NCBI GenBank assembly: GCA_951828585.1
Contig: OX639991.1
Span: forward strand, 3,256,576 to 3,320,575
From: Longimicrobiales bacterium
GTDB taxonomy: Bacteria > Gemmatimonadota > Gemmatimonadetes > Longimicrobiales > Gaopeijiaceae
DNA: 64,000 nucleotides
Direction of reading: 5' to 3'
Part shown: positions 34,498-44,904 of the stretch, piece after piece
How the letters are laid out: each line of letters starts with the position of its first letter
Numbering within the stretch: the stretch's first letter is position 1
The notes under the pieces: generated by a model
What the model saw: the letters and a program-made list of their open reading frames with translations, nothing else
Database searches by the model: none
Told to the model about the DNA's origin: nothing
Made by a program: the position numbers and the translations under genes

Positions 34498-36211
34498 CCG
34501 TATTTCTCACACCGGCAAGCAGAGGACCGCGGAGGGGGCCGTAAGGCGGGGTTGAAGCCGTCGCGGCGTGGTCAACGGCGTTGAGGTGCGGAAAACAGGG
34601 GAGGACAGCCCTGCGACGAGAGAGTTCGTAGCTCCGAACAGGCCAACCGGGGGGCGAAGGACGCTCTGGCGGGTCCCGGGGCGCACGGGTCCCGTGAGGG
34701 GTGGGGTGCAGACGGTCGGGAGCGGCGCCTTCCTCGGAGGCTACCCTGGTAATCGCGCGTGGACGCGGGCGAAGGCTGCGGCGGAGGGGTGCGCGGAGTC
34801 CATGGCGATCTTGACGCGGCGCACCGACACCATGACGCGGGCGCCGATCCTGAGAAGCTTCAGCCGGAGCGTTCCGGCGGTGGCCCGGGCCAGCCGGGTG
34901 CCGTGAAGCGCTTGCCTGAGGACGGCGAAGAGGACCGCTGCGAAGGCGGAGAAGAGGAGCCGGAGCTGGTTGGCGGCGAAACAGGTGGCCGACGTCCGGT
35001 CGGAGAAGAGATCCAGTTGCTGCTCCTTGATCGCGTTCTCGGCGTTGCCCCGCTGGCAGTACACGCGCTCGTAGACGGTGCGGGCCGAGAAGGTGTCCGC
35101 GGGCAGCGAGGTGACCACGAAGCGCGGGTTCGCCTTGTCCGCCAGATGCTCGGCCTTCGCGATGACGCGGCGCTCGCACGACCAACTCTTCCGGGTCGCG
35201 TACGGGAACTCCGTGTACCGGCGGGCCGCCCGCCCCTTCCTCTCAGCTTCCGCCGCGGCGTCGTCGAGCACCCATTCGATCCGCTCGGCAAGCCGCGAGT
35301 TCCTGGCCAGGCCGACGACATAGTCCACGTCGTTGTCCCTGCACCACGCCATCAGCTCCTCGCGGGCGTACGCGGAATCGGCCCGGACCATGACCTTCAG
35401 CCATGGCCACTGCCGCCGGAGCCGGGCGATGACGCGGCCGAGCGGCCCGGTCACCTCTCCGGCGGGATCGGCGTTGCCCGGCCTGAGCTGTGCGAAGAGC
35501 GGGCGTCCGGCGCAGAGGATGTACAGCGGCAGGAGGCAGTAGTGCCCGTAATAGCCGTGGAAGAACCGCCCCTCCTGCCGGCCGTGCACCGGATCGTCGG
35601 TCGTGTCGATGTCCAGCACCAGCCGCTCCGGGGGCAGTCCCTGCCAGGAGTCGATGAACAAGTCGGCCAGCACGTCCTGAAGCTTCTCAGGGTCGTGGCC
35701 GATCTTGCGGTAGCGGTCGGGCCGGCCCCGGGCGGGCGCGTGTTCGAGACGGCTCAGCGTGCTCTTGCCCGCCAGCGGCGCGCAGCCCTTCCGGCGTCCC
35801 TCGAGCTTGCCCGACAGCAGCGCCAGCAGCGGGTCGCGCCGCAACTCGTCGTGGTCGTTGAGGTCCTCGTATCCCAGCGTGATGCCAGTGATCCGCTGCG
35901 CCACCAGCGTCCGCACCGAATGCTCCGTGAGACGGGGGTCGCGGTGGTCCGTGAAGCACGCGGCCACCCGGTCGAAGAAGCCGAGCGCCCGGTCGATCTT
36001 CCTCAGCAGCAGCGCTCCGGCGTTCGACGTGATCGATCCGCCGTCGAACGCGGCGGTCACCTTGCGGCCCCGGCACCCTTGAAATGCGAACGAATCCGGT
36101 TTACACTGTGTCGGCATCGGTCCTCCGTGGGGAATCGGTTCAAGTTCAACGCCTATATGAACTTAACATCCCCCGGAGGCCGGTGCCTACTGGTGGGTGT
36201 GAGAAATCCGG
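34498..36211 (-). mobile_element. IS1380 family element, type A, complete copy
   Basis: 1714 bp. Terminal inverted repeats match at 15 of 16 positions (34498-34513 CCGTATTTCTCACACC; complement at 36196-36211). It carries one transposase gene. A nearly identical second copy begins at 62484, which fixes the left end because the flanks differ. A target duplication cannot be read: an IS1182 element landed only a few bases from the right end. Confidence 0.92.
34741..36117 (-). CDS. IS1380 family transposase (type A)
   Basis: A 458-residue IS4-like DDE transposase. Conserved IS1380 features are FDGGSITSNAGALLLRKID near the N-terminus, LDIDTTDDPVHGRQEG (first Asp), VMVRADSAYAREELMAW (second Asp) and YCQRGNAENAIKEQQLDLFS (Glu in the YREK-type region). 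Length is typical and there are no stops, so it is probably functional. About 245 bases of non-coding IS sequence lie between its stop and the left end. Confidence 0.94.
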   Translation of the reverse strand: MPTQCKPDSFAFQGCRGRKVTAAFDGGSITSNAGALLLRKIDRALGFFDRVAACFTDHRDPRLTEHSVRTLVAQRITGITLGYEDLNDHDELRRDPLLALLSGKLEGRRKGCAPLAGKSTLSRLEHAPARGRPDRYRKIGHDPEKLQDVLADLFIDSWQGLPPERLVLDIDTTDDPVHGRQEGRFFHGYYGHYCLLPLYILCAGRPLFAQLRPGNADPAGEVTGPLGRVIARLRRQWPWLKVMVRADSAYAREELMAWCRDNDVDYVVGLARNSRLAERIEWVLDDAAAEAERKGRAARRYTEFPYATRKSWSCERRVIAKAEHLADKANPRFVVTSLPADTFSARTVYERVYCQRGNAENAIKEQQLDLFSDRTSATCFAANQLRLLFSAFAAVLFAVLRQALHGTRLARATAGTLRLKLLRIGARVMVSVRRVKIAMDSAHPSAAAFARVHARLPG

Positions 36212-36216
36212 GCTAG

Positions 36217-37818
36217 GAGCTTGCGCCGCAGAAGCGCGGCGGACGTGACGGAAACCTGGGAAGGGCACTGGGGGATCGAAAGACTCGGGGGTGGGGGGAT
36301 GGGGGATCCGAGCCGCTGACGGGGCGGGAGGGCCGTGCAGTGCCAAATCGGGGCCCAGGAGGCCCGTGGGAGCCTCGGTGGGCGTAGTTGCGGGGCAACG
36401 AACGCCGCCTCATGCGGCCTGGAGGGTATGTAGCCGCTTCACGTTGAGGGCCAGACACACGAGGGTCCACTCGGCTTCGACCTTCCGCAGGCCCCGAAAG
36501 CTGAATCTTCGAAATCCCATCACCTCCTTGATCCAGCCGACAGGCGCCTCCGCCATCCACTTGCGGCGTGCGTACCGTTTTCGGCCCTCGTCGCTTGCCA
36601 GCTTCTCGGCCATGCGGGCCTTGGCGGGATACTCTTCCGGATCGGGGTCGGCGGCCGTCTTGCCCTCACGCGCCAGCGGTACATAGCCGTCGATGTCCCG
36701 CTCCTTCAGCGCCTGCAGGTTCGGTTCGCTGCAATAACCCGCGTCCGCCAAGACCTGCTCCGGCGTCTCGCCACATGTCTGCGCCACCGCGTCGACCATC
36801 GGGACCAGCTGGCCCTGGTCACTCGCGTTGTCCGTCACCGCCGCAGCCACCACCAGCTGGTTGTCCCCCTCCACCGCGATCTGCGCGTTGTAGCTTTGCT
36901 GAAACCCTTCCGAACTCGTCTTCATGATCCGGCTCTCGGGGTCCGTAAAGTTGCTCTGCGCCTTCTCTTCCGGCTCGCCGTACTCCCGCTTGTAGGGCCT
37001 GCCTCCCTTCGCGTTGCGCTCCTGTCCCGGCTTGCGGCCCCGCGCGTCGTCCTTCGCCCGCTGCTCGGCCTCAAGCCGCGCCTTCGCCGCCCGGATGGCC
37101 GCCAGCCGGTCCTCGCGCCGCTTCAACTCCTCCGGCAACTCGTCGCCCCGAACGTCCTCCCCATAGTGGGCATCCTCCGCCGCGTCGACCGCTTCCGCCT
37201 CCTCCAGCAGTCCCGCGATCTCCGCTCGCAGCCGGCGCTCCTCCTTGGCCATCCGGCCATAGCTCATCGCCTTGCGCTTGCTCGCGTTGGCCCGGACCTT
37301 CGTCCCGTCCACCGAGACCCTGCCCAACCCCGCCAGGCCCATCGTCCGCGCCAGCCGAACCACCTCGGCGAACACCGCCCCGAAATCATCAAGATGCCGC
37401 CGGCGAAACTCGCACAGCGTCCGGTGTTGCGGAAAGTTGCCCGCCGCCAGCATCCGAAACGCGATGTCCTCCACCAGCTTCGTCGCCAGCTTCCGCGACG
37501 AAAAAGTGCCCGTCGCGTATCCGTAGACCAGCACCTTCACCATCATCCGCGGATCGTACGGCGAGTTGCGCCGCCCGTCCCCCTCGTACGGCGCGTAGAA
37601 CGAATCCAGATCCAGCGCGTCCACCAGGTCGCTCACATGATGCGCCAAGTGCCCTTCCGGGACCCACTCACGCAGATCCTGCGGCAGCAGCTGCATCTGG
37701 TCCGGCTGGTACGGTCGGAACGTCGTTCCCATTGACCCCCCTCGGCTGGCCATCAACCTTTCACGATGCCTTCGACTCCCCTAAAGATAGCAGTCGTGGT
37801 TTTCTGCGGCGCAGACTC
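36217..37818 (-). mobile_element. IS1182 family element inserted at CTAG beside the IS1380 copy
   Basis: 1602 bp. Inverted repeats GAG, two variable bases, TGCGCCGCAGAA occur at 36217-36233 and in complement at 37802-37818. A palindromic CTAG target is duplicated (36213-36216, 37819-37822), typical of IS1182. Without it, the IS1380 right end would run almost directly into the purF fragment. Confidence 0.93.
36410..37732 (-). CDS. IS1182 family transposase
   Basis: 440 residues from ATG 37732, preceded by GAGGGGGG. The N-terminal domain is FRPYQPDQMQLLPQDLREWV and the core region YDPRMMVKVLVYGYATGTFS. The DDE residues lie in GRVSVDGTKVRANASK, VLADAGYCSEPNLQ and the C-terminal region around WIKEVMGFRRFSFRGLRKVE. 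A long Glu/Ala/Arg-rich helical insert at about 165-240 is family-typical. The frame is complete. Confidence 0.94.
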   Translation of the reverse strand: MGTTFRPYQPDQMQLLPQDLREWVPEGHLAHHVSDLVDALDLDSFYAPYEGDGRRNSPYDPRMMVKVLVYGYATGTFSSRKLATKLVEDIAFRMLAAGNFPQHRTLCEFRRRHLDDFGAVFAEVVRLARTMGLAGLGRVSVDGTKVRANASKRKAMSYGRMAKEERRLRAEIAGLLEEAEAVDAAEDAHYGEDVRGDELPEELKRREDRLAAIRAAKARLEAEQRAKDDARGRKPGQERNAKGGRPYKREYGEPEEKAQSNFTDPESRIMKTSSEGFQQSYNAQIAVEGDNQLVVAAAVTDNASDQGQLVPMVDAVAQTCGETPEQVLADAGYCSEPNLQALKERDIDGYVPLAREGKTAADPDPEEYPAKARMAEKLASDEGRKRYARRKWMAEAPVGWIKEVMGFRRFSFRGLRKVEAEWTLVCLALNVKRLHTLQAA

Positions 37819-37949: not shown

Positions 37950-38369
37950 CTACCCCGCGGCCAAGACCCCCCGGGACTCCTTGCGATCGCGATGCCTGGT
38001 GTACAGCGCGGCCACGATCCCCGTCACGACCGCACCGATCGCGGCAGTGCCGGTTGGCAGTGCGGTTTCGGCATTCCCCCCGGCGATGAAGAATGCGAAG
38101 GTACCGATCGCGACCAGGGCGCCCAGGATCGGAAAGTCCCACCAACGTTCCGTTTCTTCCAGCCACCTGGCTTCCCGTTCGATCCGGGCCATTGCGCGCT
38201 CGTTGAGGCCGGGGGGGAGTTCGGCTTCGGGATTCAGTGCATAGCGGGCTCCGTGCTGAATCTGCCAGTCCAGCCAGCACGAAGGGCAACTCTTGAGGTG
38301 CTCCAACACATCGGGGTCGGCTTGGGGCGAGCTCGCGCGCGTGAGCGCGGTGGGGTCGGGGCAGGTCAT
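37950..38369 (-). CDS. Probable anti-sigma factor (zinc-finger-like, two membrane helices)
   Basis: 139 residues. Near the N-terminus a ZAS-like HLKSCPSCWLDWQ (His-x3-Cys-x2-Cys) is followed by a helix (LNERAMARIEREARWLEETE) and two hydrophobic segments (FPILGALVAIGTFAFFIAG, GTAAIGAVVTGIVAALYT). The start overlaps the ECF sigma stop by four bases, the normal layout for a cognate membrane anti-sigma factor. A small periplasmic loop connects the helices, so the stimulus may be sensed within the membrane. The stop lies against the purF fragment. Confidence 0.82.
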   Translation of the reverse strand: MTCPDPTALTRASSPQADPDVLEHLKSCPSCWLDWQIQHGARYALNPEAELPPGLNERAMARIEREARWLEETERWWDFPILGALVAIGTFAFFIAGGNAETALPTGTAAIGAVVTGIVAALYTRHRDRKESRGVLAAG

Positions 38370-39055
38370 GGTCTGTAGTCCTTCATCAGTTGACGGAGTT
38401 TCTTGGCTGCGTGGCGGAGGTTGGAATGCACCGTCGCGCGGCTGACCCCCAGGGCCAGGGCCGTCTCCGCGATGTCGCGTCCCTCGACGTGCACGAGGGT
38501 GAAGGTCTCCTGTTGCCTGGCGGGCAATTGGGCGAGCGCATCACGCAGGCGAACCATGAACTCCTTGTTTGCCACGAGCTTCGATGGATCCTCCAGTCTC
38601 GTGTGGGCCTCGTCGAGCGCGAGCGTGTCGGCGGCAAGCCGTTCCACGGTCGCGGCCCGGGAAGTCCGTGAGCGATGCCAGTCCTTGCAGTGATTGTGTG
38701 CAATCCGGTTGATCCACGCCGCCAGCGGCCCCCGGCCCGAATACCGAGCCCGGTGTTTCCACAGGCGAACGCAGATCTCCTGGTACAGTTCCTGACGGTC
38801 ATGGTGGTTGGGAGTGTACGGGGCGACGATGCTCATGATCAGTGGGCCGAAGTGTTGCAATACGGTCCGAAACGTCCCGGAGGCACCGCGGTGGAAGTCG
38901 TCGACGCCAACTCCTGGTGCCAGCTCGTCGTCTCTGTCCACCCCGGCCTCGCGTAATGTGGGTCGGTACGGCAACCGGACCGTGACCGCTTGGGCGGCGA
39001 CCCGGCTGGAATCCCCCAACGGGTACTGTAACGCTTTGCTGGCTGTGGGAGTCAT
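38366..39055 (-). CDS. ECF-type RNA polymerase sigma factor
   Basis: 229 residues from ATG 39055. A variable N-terminus of about 60 residues is followed by sigma region 2 (VAPYTPNHHDRQELYQEICV, RLWKHRARYSGRGPLAAWIN) and region 4 (LAQLPARQQETFTLVHVEGR, ETALALGVSRATVHSNLRHA). It overlaps both the upstream membrane protein (4 bp) and the downstream anti-sigma gene (4 bp), so all are co-translated. The target promoter may be the operon itself and the divergent genes at 40393. Confidence 0.92.
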   Translation of the reverse strand: MTPTASKALQYPLGDSSRVAAQAVTVRLPYRPTLREAGVDRDDELAPGVGVDDFHRGASGTFRTVLQHFGPLIMSIVAPYTPNHHDRQELYQEICVRLWKHRARYSGRGPLAAWINRIAHNHCKDWHRSRTSRAATVERLAADTLALDEAHTRLEDPSKLVANKEFMVRLRDALAQLPARQQETFTLVHVEGRDIAETALALGVSRATVHSNLRHAAKKLRQLMKDYRP

Positions 39056-39873
39056 CCGCGTTTCCTGCGAATCAGGTAACACAGCAGCAGCGCTTCCGTC
39101 AACGGAAACGCCAGCGGGATCCAGGCGCTCAGGACCCCGGAGCGCAGAGTGCCGTCCCGCAGAAAGGGCTGGATTGGGGCGGCGAGTCCCACACACGCGA
39201 GGAACGCAATGCCTCCGAAGACACCGATGGCGATTCGCGCATTGCGCCGGGATTGTCGGCGGAGGTGTACGGTCACCCGGGTGGCCAGCATGCCGAGCAG
39301 CAGGTTTGTCAGGCCGAAGACGGCCAAGGCCACAGGTCGATGAAGCACCCACCGGAGCACATTGGGTGGTCGCCGGTGCCGAGCGTCGACTGACGTGGCG
39401 TACTCCTCGGGTGGGTTGGCCTCCACGAAACGGAGGTTTCGCAGGATTCCGGCGGGAGTTTGCGGCCCGAACCGGCTTCGCTCGGCGGTCGCCGGTTCCA
39501 GGGTCGTCAGGTATGCGTGGTGAAGCTCCGGTTCCACCCACGCGGTCAGGACGTAGGACAGTGAGCCGAATGCGATTCCGATGGCCAGGGCCATTCGTGC
39601 CAAGTGGCGCGAGTGCGCACGCACGCGCCCCAACGCCACGCCCGACGCGAACATCGCGAACGGAAGTATGAAGCCGATCCCGCCAACGACGAACCACATC
39701 CACCAGCGCACGGAGTCCATTCCCCCCCGCCACTGCGCAAGGTGCAGCACCAGAAGGGAACCGAGCAGCAGAAGGCACCATGGAGCCATCCCGCTCCAGG
39801 CCACTCCGATCCAACCGACCGACCGGTCTCGCCTTTCCGCCCGGATCCTCCTGGGGCTTCCGAGCGTGAACAT
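39052..39873 (-). CDS. Multi-pass membrane protein of the sigma/anti-sigma operon
   Basis: 273 residues from ATG 39873. About six hydrophobic segments: MAPWCLLLLGSLLVLHLAQW, WWMWFVVGGIGFILPFAMFA, MALAIGIAFGSLSYVLTAWV, a pair near 180-235 (VALAVFGLTNLLLGMLAT, IAIGVFGGIAFLACVGLAA) and a last one near the C-terminus (AWIPLAFPLTEALLLCYLI). A soluble region of about 65 residues lies between the third and fourth. It loosely resembles LptF/LptG-type permeases in helix order, but that is not firm. The start codon shares a base with the stop of the Cys-rich gene (TAATG), so it is translationally coupled to it. Confidence 0.75.
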   Translation of the reverse strand: MFTLGSPRRIRAERRDRSVGWIGVAWSGMAPWCLLLLGSLLVLHLAQWRGGMDSVRWWMWFVVGGIGFILPFAMFASGVALGRVRAHSRHLARMALAIGIAFGSLSYVLTAWVEPELHHAYLTTLEPATAERSRFGPQTPAGILRNLRFVEANPPEEYATSVDARHRRPPNVLRWVLHRPVALAVFGLTNLLLGMLATRVTVHLRRQSRRNARIAIGVFGGIAFLACVGLAAPIQPFLRDGTLRSGVLSAWIPLAFPLTEALLLCYLIRRKRG

Positions 39874-40085
39874 TATTGCGGCGCGGGTCCCCTGCAGTCG
39901 AGGTCGCGTTCGCAATCATGGGTCAGCAAGCAGCAGTCTTCGCAGCAATGGGCGTTCGGCCCCTCGCCCTGGCAGCAGTCGTAGAGCCAATTCGCGGAAC
40001 GTTCGCCCGCAGGTGCCGCGATCAGAACCGCTGCCATCACCAGATTCACCAGGATGAGTACCATCGACTTCGCGCGCGTTTCCAT
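39873..40085 (-). CDS. Small secreted cysteine-rich protein
   Basis: 70 residues, too short for many gene finders. A strong Shine-Dalgarno (AAGGAGG) precedes ATG 40085. Residues 7-24 are a signal or anchor (SMVLILVNLVMAAVLIAA). The exported part has eight cysteines: 37, 38, 47, 48, 51, 52, 58 and 64 (YDCCQGEGPNAHCCEDCCLL). The spacing suggests disulfides or metal binding. It is first in an operon with a membrane protein, an ECF sigma factor and its anti-sigma factor, and a thioredoxin-like gene is divergent. The function is unknown; it could be a secreted peptide or a redox/metal sensor. Confidence 0.72.
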   Translation of the reverse strand: METRAKSMVLILVNLVMAAVLIAAPAGERSANWLYDCCQGEGPNAHCCEDCCLLTHDCERDLDCRGPAPQ

Positions 40086-40392
40086 TCTTCCTCCTTGTTG
40101 GGTTCGGTGCGGGCCACCGGTTGAACGGCCCTCGTACCCATAGGGACGGATGCCGACCCCAAATCTTGCAATCACGGCATTCTGAAGGTAACGCCCGGCG
40201 GCTGGACGGCCACTCCCTCCTCCGACCTCCGCGATGGACTCCACAGAAACGAATGTGCTCCTGGTTCCACGACGGAGCCCCGGATCCAGATTCCGACCGC
40301 CCTGCCCCGCTTTGCAAGATTCGGCACCGAGATCCGTCATGCTCATGTAGGAAGGCGGCATCGAGGACCTGAGCACCGCAAAGTGCTCCCTG
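40086..40392. promoter_or_regulatory. Divergent intergenic region between the Cys-rich operon and the redoxin gene
   Basis: A 307-bp spacer without a supported gene. It must hold promoters for both directions and is the obvious place for sites of the linked ECF sigma factor. AAC-type -35 and CGTC-type -10 elements could not be paired reliably by eye. Confidence 0.35.
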
Positions 40393-41100
40393 ATGAGGAG
40401 CGAACGAGTGGCTGGCAGCGACGGACGACATCATCGGTCGATCCTGAAGTGGGGAGGCGCCCGCTTCTTGACCCGTATCGTGCGCAGGGAACGAATCGTG
40501 GTGGCTATGTTGGCCCTGTTGGCTACGGCCCAGGCAGCAGTCATCGGCAAGCGAATGCTGGACGATCACACTCGACACGATGAGATCAAGGCCGGCGACG
40601 ATCTGTCGGAGGTGTCGCTTCGGCGGGCCGACAGTAGTCTGGTTGGCCTCGGCGGAGGCCGGACGACGCTCCTGTTGGTCTACGATCCGGAATGCGCCCA
40701 CTCGGACAGGGTCGCGGCTGGATGGCGGGAGTGGCTAGAGCGTGAGGACTATGGGGCGAATCAGGTCTTCGCCCTTCATGTCGGTGCCCGCTCACTCGCC
40801 GAGGCCTATTCGCGCGGGCAGCGGTGGCCGATTGAGGTAGTGTCCGGCGAGAGCAGTGTCGACGGGAGTGGAGAACAGGCCCTCACCAGGCGGACGCCCT
40901 GGATTTTCGCAATTGATGAGGACGGCCTCGTGGTGGCGAGCGGTCACGGCCGCAAGCTCCCCCAGGTAGCGCGAGCTTTGATCCCCACGCACTCAGGCTG
41001 GACACTTGCCGGTCAGCCGTCGGGGCCGAGGCCACGTCCCCCGGGTGGGTTGGCGCGACGAACCGGAAGCGATCAAACGGCCTTGGAGAGAGTGCGATGA
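40393..41100 (+). CDS. Membrane-anchored thioredoxin-fold protein
   Basis: 235 residues. A cytoplasmic Arg-rich N-terminus is followed by one helix (IVVAMLALLATAQAAVIG, about 35-52) and a periplasmic thioredoxin-like domain. LVYDPECAHSDRV places a single Cys where the CxxC of a thioredoxin would be, and RRTPWIFAIDEDGLVVASGHG has the cis-Pro strand. A single Cys suggests a peroxiredoxin-like or RedB-type redoxin rather than an oxidoreductase with CxxC. It is divergent from the eight-cysteine protein, a plausible partner. The ATG at 40393 has weak ribosome-binding support; ATG 40507 is an alternative. The stop overlaps the next start (ATGA). Confidence 0.75.
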   Translation: MRSERVAGSDGRHHRSILKWGGARFLTRIVRRERIVVAMLALLATAQAAVIGKRMLDDHTRHDEIKAGDDLSEVSLRRADSSLVGLGGGRTTLLLVYDPECAHSDRVAAGWREWLEREDYGANQVFALHVGARSLAEAYSRGQRWPIEVVSGESSVDGSGEQALTRRTPWIFAIDEDGLVVASGHGRKLPQVARALIPTHSGWTLAGQPSGPRPRPPGGLARRTGSDQTALERVR

Positions 41101-41690
41101 GCAAGGCCGGTGGGCGGAAGTCGGACCGGCCGGATTCGGTAGGGGACTTTCCGGAGGATTTGGTTCGGAGCTGGGTTACGCAATACCGGAACAGGATGTT
41201 GCGTGCTGCCCATGGCTACGAAGGGCGGTTTGATGAAGATGTGGTCGGTCTGGCTGGCAATCGGGATGAGTGGAGTCGTCGGCCATCAACGGGTTGGTGT
41301 CCTGCTTCCCCCTCACGAGGACCTGACGCCAGGATCATCGCTTGTCCGGAACGATCCGATTCGTCCATCTCTTCGCACGGCGAATATGGCCGCCTGGAAT
41401 GTGAACTCTTGGCGGGCGGGGCGGCATGCAACACGAGCTCCGACCCTGAAGGTGGCCCAGACTGCAAGGTCGACGTGACCTTGGCCGGTCGAGTCTCGCC
41501 GGATGTGGATTCGGAACCGTGGCCCGAAGGAGTTGGTGGGGCGGCGGTGCCCCGACGGTTAACCTCGGCGGTCCATCTCGTCGGTTTTCCGGTGGCCCGG
41601 CACGAGTGTTCGAGCGCGATCATTCGACGCCGCTGCTCCTCGGAGCGAATCGCTGAACTGCGTTCGGGCCTTCGGCGTGTCACGATCTGA
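41097..41690 (+). CDS. Hypothetical protein, possibly frameshifted
   Basis: 197 residues, supported mainly by the ATGA overlap with the redoxin gene. The first 50 residues look coding (FPEDLVRSWVTQYRNRMLRA, HGYEGRFDEDVVGLAGNRDE). After that the composition becomes irregular. Another frame starting near 41224 encodes a signal-like segment, MKMWSVWLAIGMSGVVGHQ. A likely reading is a short first gene followed by a second small secreted protein, with a frameshift or decay between. No family recognised. Confidence 0.35.
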   Translation: MSKAGGRKSDRPDSVGDFPEDLVRSWVTQYRNRMLRAAHGYEGRFDEDVVGLAGNRDEWSRRPSTGWCPASPSRGPDARIIACPERSDSSISSHGEYGRLECELLAGGAACNTSSDPEGGPDCKVDVTLAGRVSPDVDSEPWPEGVGGAAVPRRLTSAVHLVGFPVARHECSSAIIRRRCSSERIAELRSGLRRVTI

Positions 41691-42020
41691 CGCCTTGGTC
41701 GGTGCCGCGCTGGCCTGTTTGTCCGCCGCCTCGCCCCTCTCGGGCACCGGGCAACCGGAGCAGTGGACATTGGAGCTCACCGTGACGATTGGCAGTGTGT
41801 TCGATGCGGAAACGGGACTCACGGCAGTAGGCGGCGTGATTGTCGAGGGCGACCGGCTGTTCGTGGCGCAACCGTATGAGCAACGCCTCAGGGTGTTCTC
41901 CCTCACCGGAGACTTCCTGGACTTCATCGGCCGCGACGGAGAAGGCCCAGGGGAGTTCCGGAGTGTTGATGGCATAGGCCTGCACGAAGGTTTGGTCTGG
42001 GTCCTGGCCGCTGTTGATAG
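41677..42020 (+). pseudogene. Truncated six-bladed beta-propeller protein
   Basis: From a GTG at 41677: a signal segment (ALVGAALACLSAASPLSG), then one propeller blade, GGVIVEGDRLFVAQPYEQRL and FSLTGDFLDFIGRDGEGPGE, with FRSVDGIGLHEGLVWVL. Such secreted propeller proteins normally run 350-400 residues. Here homology stops after about 110 residues, and the frame continues through a hairpin to 42126 without similarity. It is a 3'-deleted remnant. Confidence 0.65.
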
Positions 42021-42053
42021 AGTTCCCGGATTACCAGCTTCCGGAAAGAAAAG

Positions 42054-42074
42054 GGGGGGTGAGGCACACCCCCC
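42054..42074 (+). terminator. Hairpin upstream of the lipoprotein gene
   Basis: An 8-bp perfect stem, GGGGGGTG (42054-42061) and CACCCCCC (42067-42074), with a 5-base loop. It lies 49 bases before the lipoprotein ATG, whose Shine-Dalgarno is AAAGGAG. It could be a terminator of the truncated propeller transcript or a 5' structure of the lipoprotein mRNA. Confidence 0.45.
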
Positions 42075-42122
42075 GGGGTTGGTGGGAGACCCGATGACAT
42101 CCCACAGCAAAGGAGAAGTCCC

Positions 42123-43001
42123 ATGAGATCACAGACATGGATGGTCATTCCGCTGTTCGCCTTCCTGGCCGGATGCGGTCTGGAGGATGGAGCCAACATG
42201 GAGCCCGAACAGCCGGACAGGGAAGGCAACTGGGCCGCCGTCGAGCTGTACGAGACGGCCGGTCCGAACGGTGAGTGGGTGGCGGTGAGCGAAGCCGCGA
42301 TCAAGGCGGACAGGAATTGGATCCAGCCGGGTGAGGATGATGGATGGGAAAAGGTTCTGTGGACCGATCAGCCGGATGGCTCCCGTGAGCCCTATCGTCC
42401 CCTGGTACCCGGGTGGGTTCAGGAATTGCGACTGGAGAATGGGGGAGATTGGCCGGAATGGTTCGGGCCGGCTGAGCGTGCCTTCTACGGCAGTGCTGAT
42501 GCGGGGGACGTTGCGGCGTTTCGCAGTGGCAGATGCGGCAACCAGGAGGAGCCTGTTCTGTTCATGGAGACCCCCTACTCGGTTGCTCACATCAGCCAGT
42601 CCAAGCGGGGCCCCAACCGGGGCAGCGTCGCGTTCACGGTCGGAGCGGCGTAGGAGACGGCGATCAGCGTGCCTCCCGGCACCGAGCGCAACGAAGCTCG
42701 CCACCGGCTGGGTATTCACGGCACCTTGTCCGGCTTTGGCCCCGACAAGACCTATCCAGGCCACGGTACGGTGAGCCCGGGCTGCCAAACGGGGTTCCTC
42801 AAGTTCGTGTACGGGCAAATCCCAGCTGACCAGATCCATACCAAGACGACACTCTGCGTGGCGACCTCGACCTATCATTTCGCGGACAACGACTATATTC
42901 TCTGGTCTTGGGATGACGAAACCTGGACAGGTCTGCAGTGTATCGAAGTCTGCCCGGTCGACATGATGGATGCGGACGGCAATTGCGACCTCCACTACTG
43001 A
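42123..43001 (+). pseudogene. Lipoprotein gene interrupted by an in-frame TAG
   Basis: A lipoprotein signal (MVIPLFAFLAGCG, lipobox Cys18) opens a 292-codon frame interrupted by one TAG at codon 177 (42651-42653). On both sides the sequence is coherent: RGPNRGSVAFTVGAA before, and ETAISVPPGTERNEARHRL after, with a C-terminal part holding four Cys (CQTGFLK, LCVATSTYHF, CIEVCPVDMM). A GAG to TAG change would explain it. Without readthrough it yields a 176-residue lipoprotein; an in-frame ATG at 42729 is not available, although GTG 42669 could restart. No family recognised. It lies 14 bases upstream of another secreted protein. Confidence 0.7.
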
Positions 43002-43860: not shown

Positions 43861-44590
43861 TCAGGCCGCATGGTTGAGTTTCTCGAAGTCCGCCGGCGAT
43901 TCGTAGCCGAGCGCGGAGTGGAGCCGGCGGGTGTTGTAGAAGCCCTCGATGAATTGGAAGACTTCACGCCGCGCCTTGGCCACCGTCGGAAAACGCCGCC
44001 GGTCGATGAGTTCGCACTCGAGCGTGGCGAAAAAGCTCTCGCACATCGCGTTGCTGGCGGCGGCGGACCGCCATCTCCAGCGCGGCCCCCACCAGCTCGG
44101 CCTTCATGTGGGGTGCCATCGCCCAGCCGACGATCCGCCGGCTCCAGGCATCGAGCACCACGGCGAGGTACAGCCAGCCGGTCCAGGTGGGCACGTACGT
44201 GATGTCCGCCACCCACAGCTGGTCGGGACCCTTGGCCGAGAAGTTCCGGTTCACGAGGTCCGGCGCGGGCTTGGCCTTGGCGTCCCTCTTCGTCGTGCCC
44301 GTCTTGAATCGTCTCCGCGTCACGCCCTCGATGTCCAGCTCCCTCATCAGGCGTGCCACTCGCTTCCGGCTCACACGCTCGCCGTCGCCCACGAGCGCCG
44401 CGTGGATCCGCGGGCAGCCGTAGGTCTCGTCGCTGTCGCGCCAGATCGCCTTGATCCTGACCTTGAGCTCGGAGTCTCGTCCCGCTCGCGCCGAGGGCGG
44501 TCGGTTCAGCCAGCCGTAGTACCCGCTGGGGGAGAGACCCAGCACCCGGCACATGGCCGCAAGCGGGAAGGTGGCCCGGTACGCCTTCAT
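43861..44590 (-). pseudogene. IS3 OrfB with internal deletion
   Basis: From ATG 44590 the frame reads AAMCRVLGLSPSGYYGWLNR, then the first catalytic Asp in LWVADITYVPTWTGWLYLAV. Near 44058 the frame changes. The 3' part continues in another frame as MCESFFATLECELIDRRRFP and FYNTRRLHSALGYESPADFE. The block with the second Asp (normally HSDRGSQY through YDNA) is missing. Catalysis is therefore impossible. The ATG overlaps the orfA stop. Confidence 0.87.
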
Positions 44591-44904
44591 GAACGCATAC
44601 CCCCGCCTGGGATCGATTCGCTCTCCCTCGCGAACCAGGCCGCGGCTTTTTTTAGGATGTCCCGCTCCATCCTGAGCCGCTTGACTTCCCGCTTCAGCTC
44701 CCTCATCTCCTTGCGTGCCTCCGTCGTCAGACCGTCACTGCGCCGGCCCTCGTCCAGGTCCGCCTGCTTGACCCAGTTCCGGATCGTCTGCTGCGAAGGC
44801 TCGAACTCGCGTGCGAGAGACCCCGGACTACGCCCGGCTCTCACCAGCTCGACGATACGTTCCTTGTACTCGGGCGGATACCGCCCTCGTCTTCTTCCCG
44901 CCAT
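44587..44904 (-). CDS. IS3 OrfA (second IS3 element)
   Basis: 105 residues. The HTH is in LVRAGRSPGSLAREFEPSQQ and TIRNWVKQADLDEG; the coiled C-terminal helix is EMRELKREVKRLRMERDILK. An A-rich slippery run at the KK codons (ILKKAAAW) is a probable -1 frameshift site. The frame is intact, unlike its orfB. Confidence 0.88.
   Translation of the reverse strand: MAGRRRGRYPPEYKERIVELVRAGRSPGSLAREFEPSQQTIRNWVKQADLDEGRRSDGLTTEARKEMRELKREVKRLRMERDILKKAAAWFARESESIPGGGMRS

Follow-up and report, generated by a model that had tools for sequence, protein, structure and literature searches.

A gene cluster built around an extracytoplasmic function (ECF) sigma factor was examined in a 64,000-nucleotide stretch of the genome of a Longimicrobiales bacterium from the Gemmatimonadota (GenBank assembly GCA_951828585.1, contig OX639991.1, positions 3,256,576 to 3,320,575 of the forward strand), and the whole of this stretch is referred to as the window. 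Genes for a small cysteine-rich peptide, a multi-pass membrane protein, the sigma factor and an anti-sigma factor follow one another on the minus strand, and a gene for a membrane-anchored redoxin is transcribed divergently. The features, in window positions, are:

37950–38369, minus strand: anti-sigma factor, 139 aa, of the zinc-anti-sigma type with an Hx3Cx2C motif (HLKSCPSC) and hydrophobic C-terminal segments.
38366–39055, minus strand: ECF sigma factor, 229 aa, with Pfam and NCBIfam matches.
39052–39873, minus strand: six-helix membrane protein with a predicted LptF/LptG fold, without the jellyroll and with a shortened segment between transmembrane helices 2 and 3 (TM2 and TM3).
39873–40085, minus strand: peptide of 70 aa, a hydrophobic N-terminal helix followed by a cysteine-rich part.
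40145–40171, minus strand: promoter-like element of the peptide operon, TTGCAAGATTTGGGGTCGGCATCCGTC, an exact motif match that recurs in relatives.
40312–40338, plus strand: promoter-like element of the redoxin transcript, TTGCAAGATTCGGCACCGAGATCCGTC, an exact motif match.
40393–41100, plus strand: redoxin, a membrane-anchored, AhpC/TSA-like thioredoxin-fold protein with a CxxS active site.
41677–42126, plus strand: truncated remnant of a 6-bladed beta-propeller (DUF5128, 1.9e-6).

The peptide stop codon and the membrane-protein start codon have one base in common (TAATG), and the junctions between membrane protein and sigma factor and between sigma factor and anti-sigma factor are 4-base ATGA overlaps. 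An earlier note on this DNA had described four minus-strand genes joined by overlaps of 1–4 bases, which the sequence confirms (37950–40085), and a divergent, membrane-anchored thioredoxin-fold protein with a single cysteine, which is present at 40393–41100 on the plus strand with its cysteine in DPECAHS. The five genes lie where that note had placed them, but the unit is larger than it supposed, as a 6-bladed beta-propeller gene also belongs to it in relatives. The sigma factor matched Sigma70_r2 (3.9e-16) and Sigma70_r4_2 (7.5e-14) in Pfam above the cut-off and TIGR02937 (2.5e-28) in NCBIfam, while the peptide, the membrane protein and the redoxin of the window, each searched alone, fell below every Pfam and NCBIfam cut-off.

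Conservation of the set was assessed at the 48 peptide loci that lie at least 4 kb from the ends of the fetched stretch, 75 neighbourhoods having been fetched. An ECF sigma gene was found within 5 kb of the peptide at 46 of the 48 loci, a LptF/G-like membrane protein within 3–4 kb at 46, a redoxin within 4 kb at 43 and a 6-bladed beta-propeller within 5 kb at 42, and the gene order of the operon recurs among relatives. The 4.47 Mb genome that contains the window has 19 Sigma70_r2 matches, giving a chance of about 4 % that one falls within 5 kb of a given gene, and the pairing of peptide and sigma factor (46/48) is thus beyond chance. The small gene therefore does stay beside the sigma operon in relatives, the point on which the earlier note had made its proposal depend. 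A single-peptide query found matches in 42 of 196 related genomes, the strong ones mostly in the genus of the window, and a 43-member peptide profile, applied to 394 genomes of the class, found matches in 33. Of the 23 genomes sampled from the genus, 20 have the family by this profile, the copy number reaching 7, and scattered matches fall in other genera and families. Searches for the membrane protein and the redoxin gave matches in 26 of 196 related genomes and in 20 of 40, respectively, and a contig search with the membrane protein returned four relatives, all Gemmatimonadota. The smallest set common to more distant genera consists of redoxin, propeller and peptide, encoded by adjacent genes (loci L178, L182, L183 and L184). 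At one of these (L183), in a genome of another family, two peptide genes lie in tandem beside the redoxin and the propeller. The host group seems to be marine Gemmatimonadota, often sponge-derived, with the sponge origin read from the bin names of some genomes.

An AlphaFold2 model of the membrane protein, built from a 34-member alignment, had a mean predicted local distance difference test score (pLDDT) of 89.8 and a predicted template modelling score (pTM) of 0.86. The best fifteen Foldseek matches of this model were all chains of LptF/LptG complexes (best E 0.006), and in VIA-align all LptF/G chains listed reached Z scores of 13.2–18.4 over 188–235 residues, the next fold reaching 7.7. As a Z score near 8 is ordinary among helical membrane proteins, the gap counts for more than the score itself. 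Ten of the 34 members also matched the LptF/LptG family PF03739 below threshold (best 0.0012). The model contains no strands and so no jellyroll domain. The conserved prolines of TM2 and TM3 are separated by 44 residues in 28 of the 34 members, compared with 57 in 31 LptF and 56 in 31 LptG proteins of the same clade. In Klebsiella LptB2FG, the segment between TM2 and TM3 contains the coupling helices, which dock in the groove of LptB (PMC5548808), and from the spacing we infer that the approximately 13 missing residues correspond to the LptB-coupling helix. As modelled, the membrane protein is thus a LptF/LptG fold without the jellyroll and with the coupling-helix segment shortened. The six-helix transmembrane fold, over 220–235 residues, is shared with the LptF/LptG permeases, but the gene adjoins that of a sigma factor instead of lpt genes. 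The genome encodes a standard pair of LptF and LptG elsewhere, at 4408478–4410942, and LptF/G matches above the cut-off were present in all 25 genomes searched.

The peptide loci fall into two architectures. In 25 of the 48, including the window, peptide, membrane protein, sigma factor and anti-sigma factor are separate genes, the redoxin is often divergent and the propellers lie behind the redoxin. At one locus in another genus (L144), redoxin, propeller, peptide, membrane protein, sigma factor and anti-sigma factor form a single row on one strand. In a further 21 loci, one protein of about 400 residues takes the place of the separate membrane protein and anti-sigma factor. Its first part matches the membrane protein across all helices of the latter (hhalign probability 95, E 2.6e-8, against E 0.28 for a reversed-sequence control) and its tail aligns with the C-terminal part of the anti-sigma factor (probability 72, E 3.5e-5, control E 0.017). 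At peptide loci the free membrane protein and the free anti-sigma factor always occur together and never beside the long protein. These alignments suggest that the long protein may be a fusion of the membrane protein and an anti-sigma-like tail. A protein of about 1500 aa recurs beside the sigma gene in several long-form loci (L130, L143, L148, L156, L105, L110 and L140).

In the peptide (METRAKSMVLILVNLVMAAVLIAAPAGERSANWLYDCCQGEGPNAHCCEDCCLLTHDCERDLDCRGPAPQ), the cysteines follow the pattern CC-x8-CC-x2-CC-x5-C-x5-C, that is, three vicinal pairs plus two. All eight cysteines, together with Asn14 in the N-terminal helix, are invariant in the 43 aligned peptides, and comparison with the two nearest relatives gives a ratio of non-synonymous to synonymous change (dN/dS) of about 0.39 (0.40/1.03 and 0.36/0.92). 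The predicted structure is of low confidence except for the N-terminal helix (pLDDT 70.8, pTM 0.38), and the peptide had neither a Foldseek match nor a sequence relative of solved structure. A near-invariant Gln47 lies in the N-terminal transmembrane helix of the redoxin, whose active-site Cys101 is invariant, as is Pro169 at the position expected of a cis-proline. The second cysteine position is occupied by serine in the window type (CxxS) and by cysteine (CxxC) in several relatives, including L144. Matches to AhpC-TSA were obtained for 10 of 36 members of the redoxin family (best 3.2e-5), though the window copy itself has no Pfam match. Asn14 of the peptide and Gln47 of the redoxin, polar residues placed in membrane helices, hint at a possible intramembrane contact. 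A divergent peptide with a reduced cysteine pattern adjoins a CxxC redoxin at L145:10494-10703.

The anti-sigma factor of the window has a weak NCBIfam anti-sigma match (1.8e-5), and Hx3Cx2C is present in 36 of 38 homologues. About half of the membrane-bound class I anti-sigma factors bear this motif, the membrane-bound zinc type is common, and the motif may be structural (PMC7406223), so its presence is no proof of redox sensing.

Both divergent transcripts of the window are preceded by the same promoter-like motif, TTGCAAGATT-N12-CCGTC. In the 4.47 Mb genome, the pattern TTGCAMGNTT-N12-CCGTC is matched exactly at only two places, both in the intergenic region of the window and pointing outward. 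When one mismatch was allowed, 12 matches were found in the genome compared with 2 for the reversed pattern, and a CTGTY version gave 9 compared with none. Among the regions upstream of peptide operons, redoxins and peptide-less membrane-protein operons, the word pair TGCAC-N16-CTGT occurred in 18 of 46, compared with at most 4 in shuffles. A matrix derived from such regions found a site in 31 of 47 (17/25 peptide, 9/13 redoxin and 5/9 others), counts that are optimistic as the training set was the same set; the pattern scans of the genome for the regulon are the more independent check. Three sites of the CTGTY version lie at a cluster of 6-bladed propeller genes at about 576–581 kb (L250, G000 572000-590000), one precedes a rhomboid-like open reading frame (ORF) and one a response-regulator-like ORF, these names being read from translations. 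From these sites, propellers elsewhere in the genome are probable targets of the window sigma factor or of its paralogues. An exact promoter-type site at L247:3116-3142 lies 127 bp ahead of a rhomboid-like ORF.

The peptide, membrane protein, sigma and anti-sigma genes of the window copy are intact. The propeller remnant covers only profile positions 20–143, recovered at 41698–42045. An ORF at 41097–41690, which overlaps the redoxin stop codon by 4 bases, has no Pfam match and is possibly degenerate. Transposase genes of the DDE_Tnp_1/DUF772 and DDE_Tnp_1_4 types and an IS3-like pair lie on both sides of the unit (34741–37756 and 43964–44904).

We tentatively favour the explanation that the unit is an autoregulated signalling cassette of an ECF sigma factor and a zinc-type anti-sigma factor, in which the membrane partner is a derived LptF/G-fold protein. 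At rest, the anti-sigma factor would hold the sigma factor inactive at the membrane together with the LptF/G-like protein. An envelope cue, most likely a redox state or a ligand engaging the side of peptide, propeller and redoxin, would release the sigma factor, which would then direct transcription of its own operon and of the redoxin-propeller transcript via TTGCAMG-N15-CYGTC promoters. In the periplasm, the redoxin may sort the disulfides of the eight-cysteine peptide, which once folded might act there alongside the propeller as sensor or effector. Peptide, redoxin and propellers would thereby form the envelope input or output of the cassette, and LptB-driven transport by the membrane protein is unlikely. 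The earlier note's idea of a self-contained envelope signalling or maturation unit fits the conserved composition, the shared divergent promoters, the membrane-linked anti-sigma factor and the membrane-anchored redoxin. That note had the small protein sensed, oxidised, exported or metal-loaded, any of which may apply. In known pairs of an ECF sigma factor and a class I (ASDI) anti-sigma factor with Hx3Cx2C, the genes are likewise adjacent and overlapping, with a zinc motif, C-terminal hydrophobic segments and an apparently autoregulated promoter. Here, in contrast, the operon includes a LptF/G-fold protein, which is apparently fused to an anti-sigma-like tail at about half of the peptide loci. 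A bolder form of the proposal is possible but doubtful, namely that a lipopolysaccharide (LPS)-permease fold which has lost its ATPase-coupling and periplasmic parts serves the anti-sigma factor as membrane receptor subunit, reads the redoxin-oxidised eight-cysteine peptide as its signal and so defines a new class of ECF signalling.

Several observations weigh against the signalling cassette. The case for LptF/G rests on the predicted fold because the link in sequence is weak: the PF03739 score of 14.5 bits is below the curated cut-off of 27.9, and hhalign comparisons of the membrane protein with the LptF and LptG of its own clade were not significant (probability 2 for LptG). Of 47 membrane-protein loci, 16 have no peptide nearby, which suggests that the sigma cassette does not need one to work. 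Two anti-sigma factors lack the zinc motif. Hx3Cx2C is also absent from the long form, and the match of its tail to the anti-sigma factor lies mainly in the C-terminal hydrophobic segments, which is why the fusion is put forward as a suggestion. The promoter search at long-form loci gave no one clear motif. The window copy may be partly degraded, its propeller being broken. The gene set, the predicted fold, the zinc motif and the shared promoter-like sites are seen in sequence or structure prediction; inhibition and release of the sigma factor, the direction of signalling, the cue, the action of the peptide and a contact between peptide and membrane protein are inferred.

The adjacency of propeller, redoxin and peptide, as the smallest set common to distant genera, would also suit a two-subunit periplasmic redox protein with its maturation kit in the style of methylamine dehydrogenase, the sigma pair being merely regulatory. 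Sets of the mau type comprise MauD and MauE, a cysteine-rich small subunit and a propeller large subunit, and the small subunit of methylamine or quinohemoprotein amine dehydrogenase is marked by a crosslinked Trp cofactor. By analogy, the propeller would be the large and the peptide the small subunit, with the redoxin resembling MauD and the membrane protein MauE. The likeness in redoxin, cysteine-rich small protein, beta-propeller and membrane protein is one of analogy only, as there is no sequence match and a sigma pair is present here. Two of the 43 peptides do match QH_gamma, the gamma subunit of quinohemoprotein amine dehydrogenase, sub-significantly (E 0.014 at best), but none of the 43 has a Pfam match to a known small subunit, the peptides have no conserved pair of tryptophans, and the membrane protein has the LptF/G fold with no MauE or DoxX match. 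We consider this explanation unlikely.

The nearest analogue by gene content is the Buf1 (bufferin-1) operon, which encodes a cysteine-rich exported peptide, a DoxX membrane protein, a sigma factor and an NrsF anti-sigma factor (PMC12452194). This broad recipe, a small cysteine-rich exported peptide, a multi-pass membrane protein, an ECF sigma factor and an anti-sigma factor in one cluster, recurs here. With the eight invariant cysteines, it could point to a metal- or thiol-stress buffer, in which the periplasmic peptide chelates metal or scavenges oxidants, the stress itself being sensed by the sigma/anti-sigma pair. However, the membrane protein has the LptF/G fold and not that of DoxX, the anti-sigma factor is of the zinc type and not NrsF, a redoxin and a propeller are added, and none of the 43 peptides matched DUF2282. 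For the MNIO enzyme (PF05114) that defines bufferin operons, the whole genome was searched at E 0.01 without a match, while a Caulobacter genome used as a positive control did match, and identity with a bufferin operon was dropped for this reason. A dedicated redoxin suggests disulfides rather than free thiols, and a buffer of this kind seems distinctly unlikely.

The diverging, multi-copy nature of the peptide family, with its cysteine scaffold fixed, and the apparent derivation of some genomes from sponge metagenomes, as judged by bin names, would be in keeping with a secreted effector or bacteriocin-like product, one that occurs in lineage-specific copies, owes its oxidation to the redoxin and leaves through the envelope. 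What recurs at the loci, however, is the sigma factor, membrane protein, redoxin and propeller and not an immunity gene, peptidase or exporter, and the loss of the coupling-helix segment speaks against ATP-driven export, making such a product improbable. The same missing segment disfavours ATP-driven export via the membrane protein, and despite the LptF/G fold it is very improbable that this protein actively exports lipid or peptide with energy from the LptB of the genome, given the approximately 13 residues missing at the coupling helix, the lack of a jellyroll in the model and the lack of any ATPase gene recurring in the unit.

The earlier note knew of no described system with this composition, and none was found in Pfam, NCBIfam, solved structures or open-access papers, the last of which contained nothing relevant on NVEALA peptides or on sets of propeller, redoxin and cysteine-rich protein. 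If the signalling cassette is correct, a transport fold would have been reused as a signalling subunit, to which an anti-sigma-like tail is apparently attached at about half of the loci. The promoter motif would make the regulon readable from sequence, and the unannotated peptide, membrane protein and redoxin families of these poorly cultured marine Gemmatimonadota would gain a testable function space.

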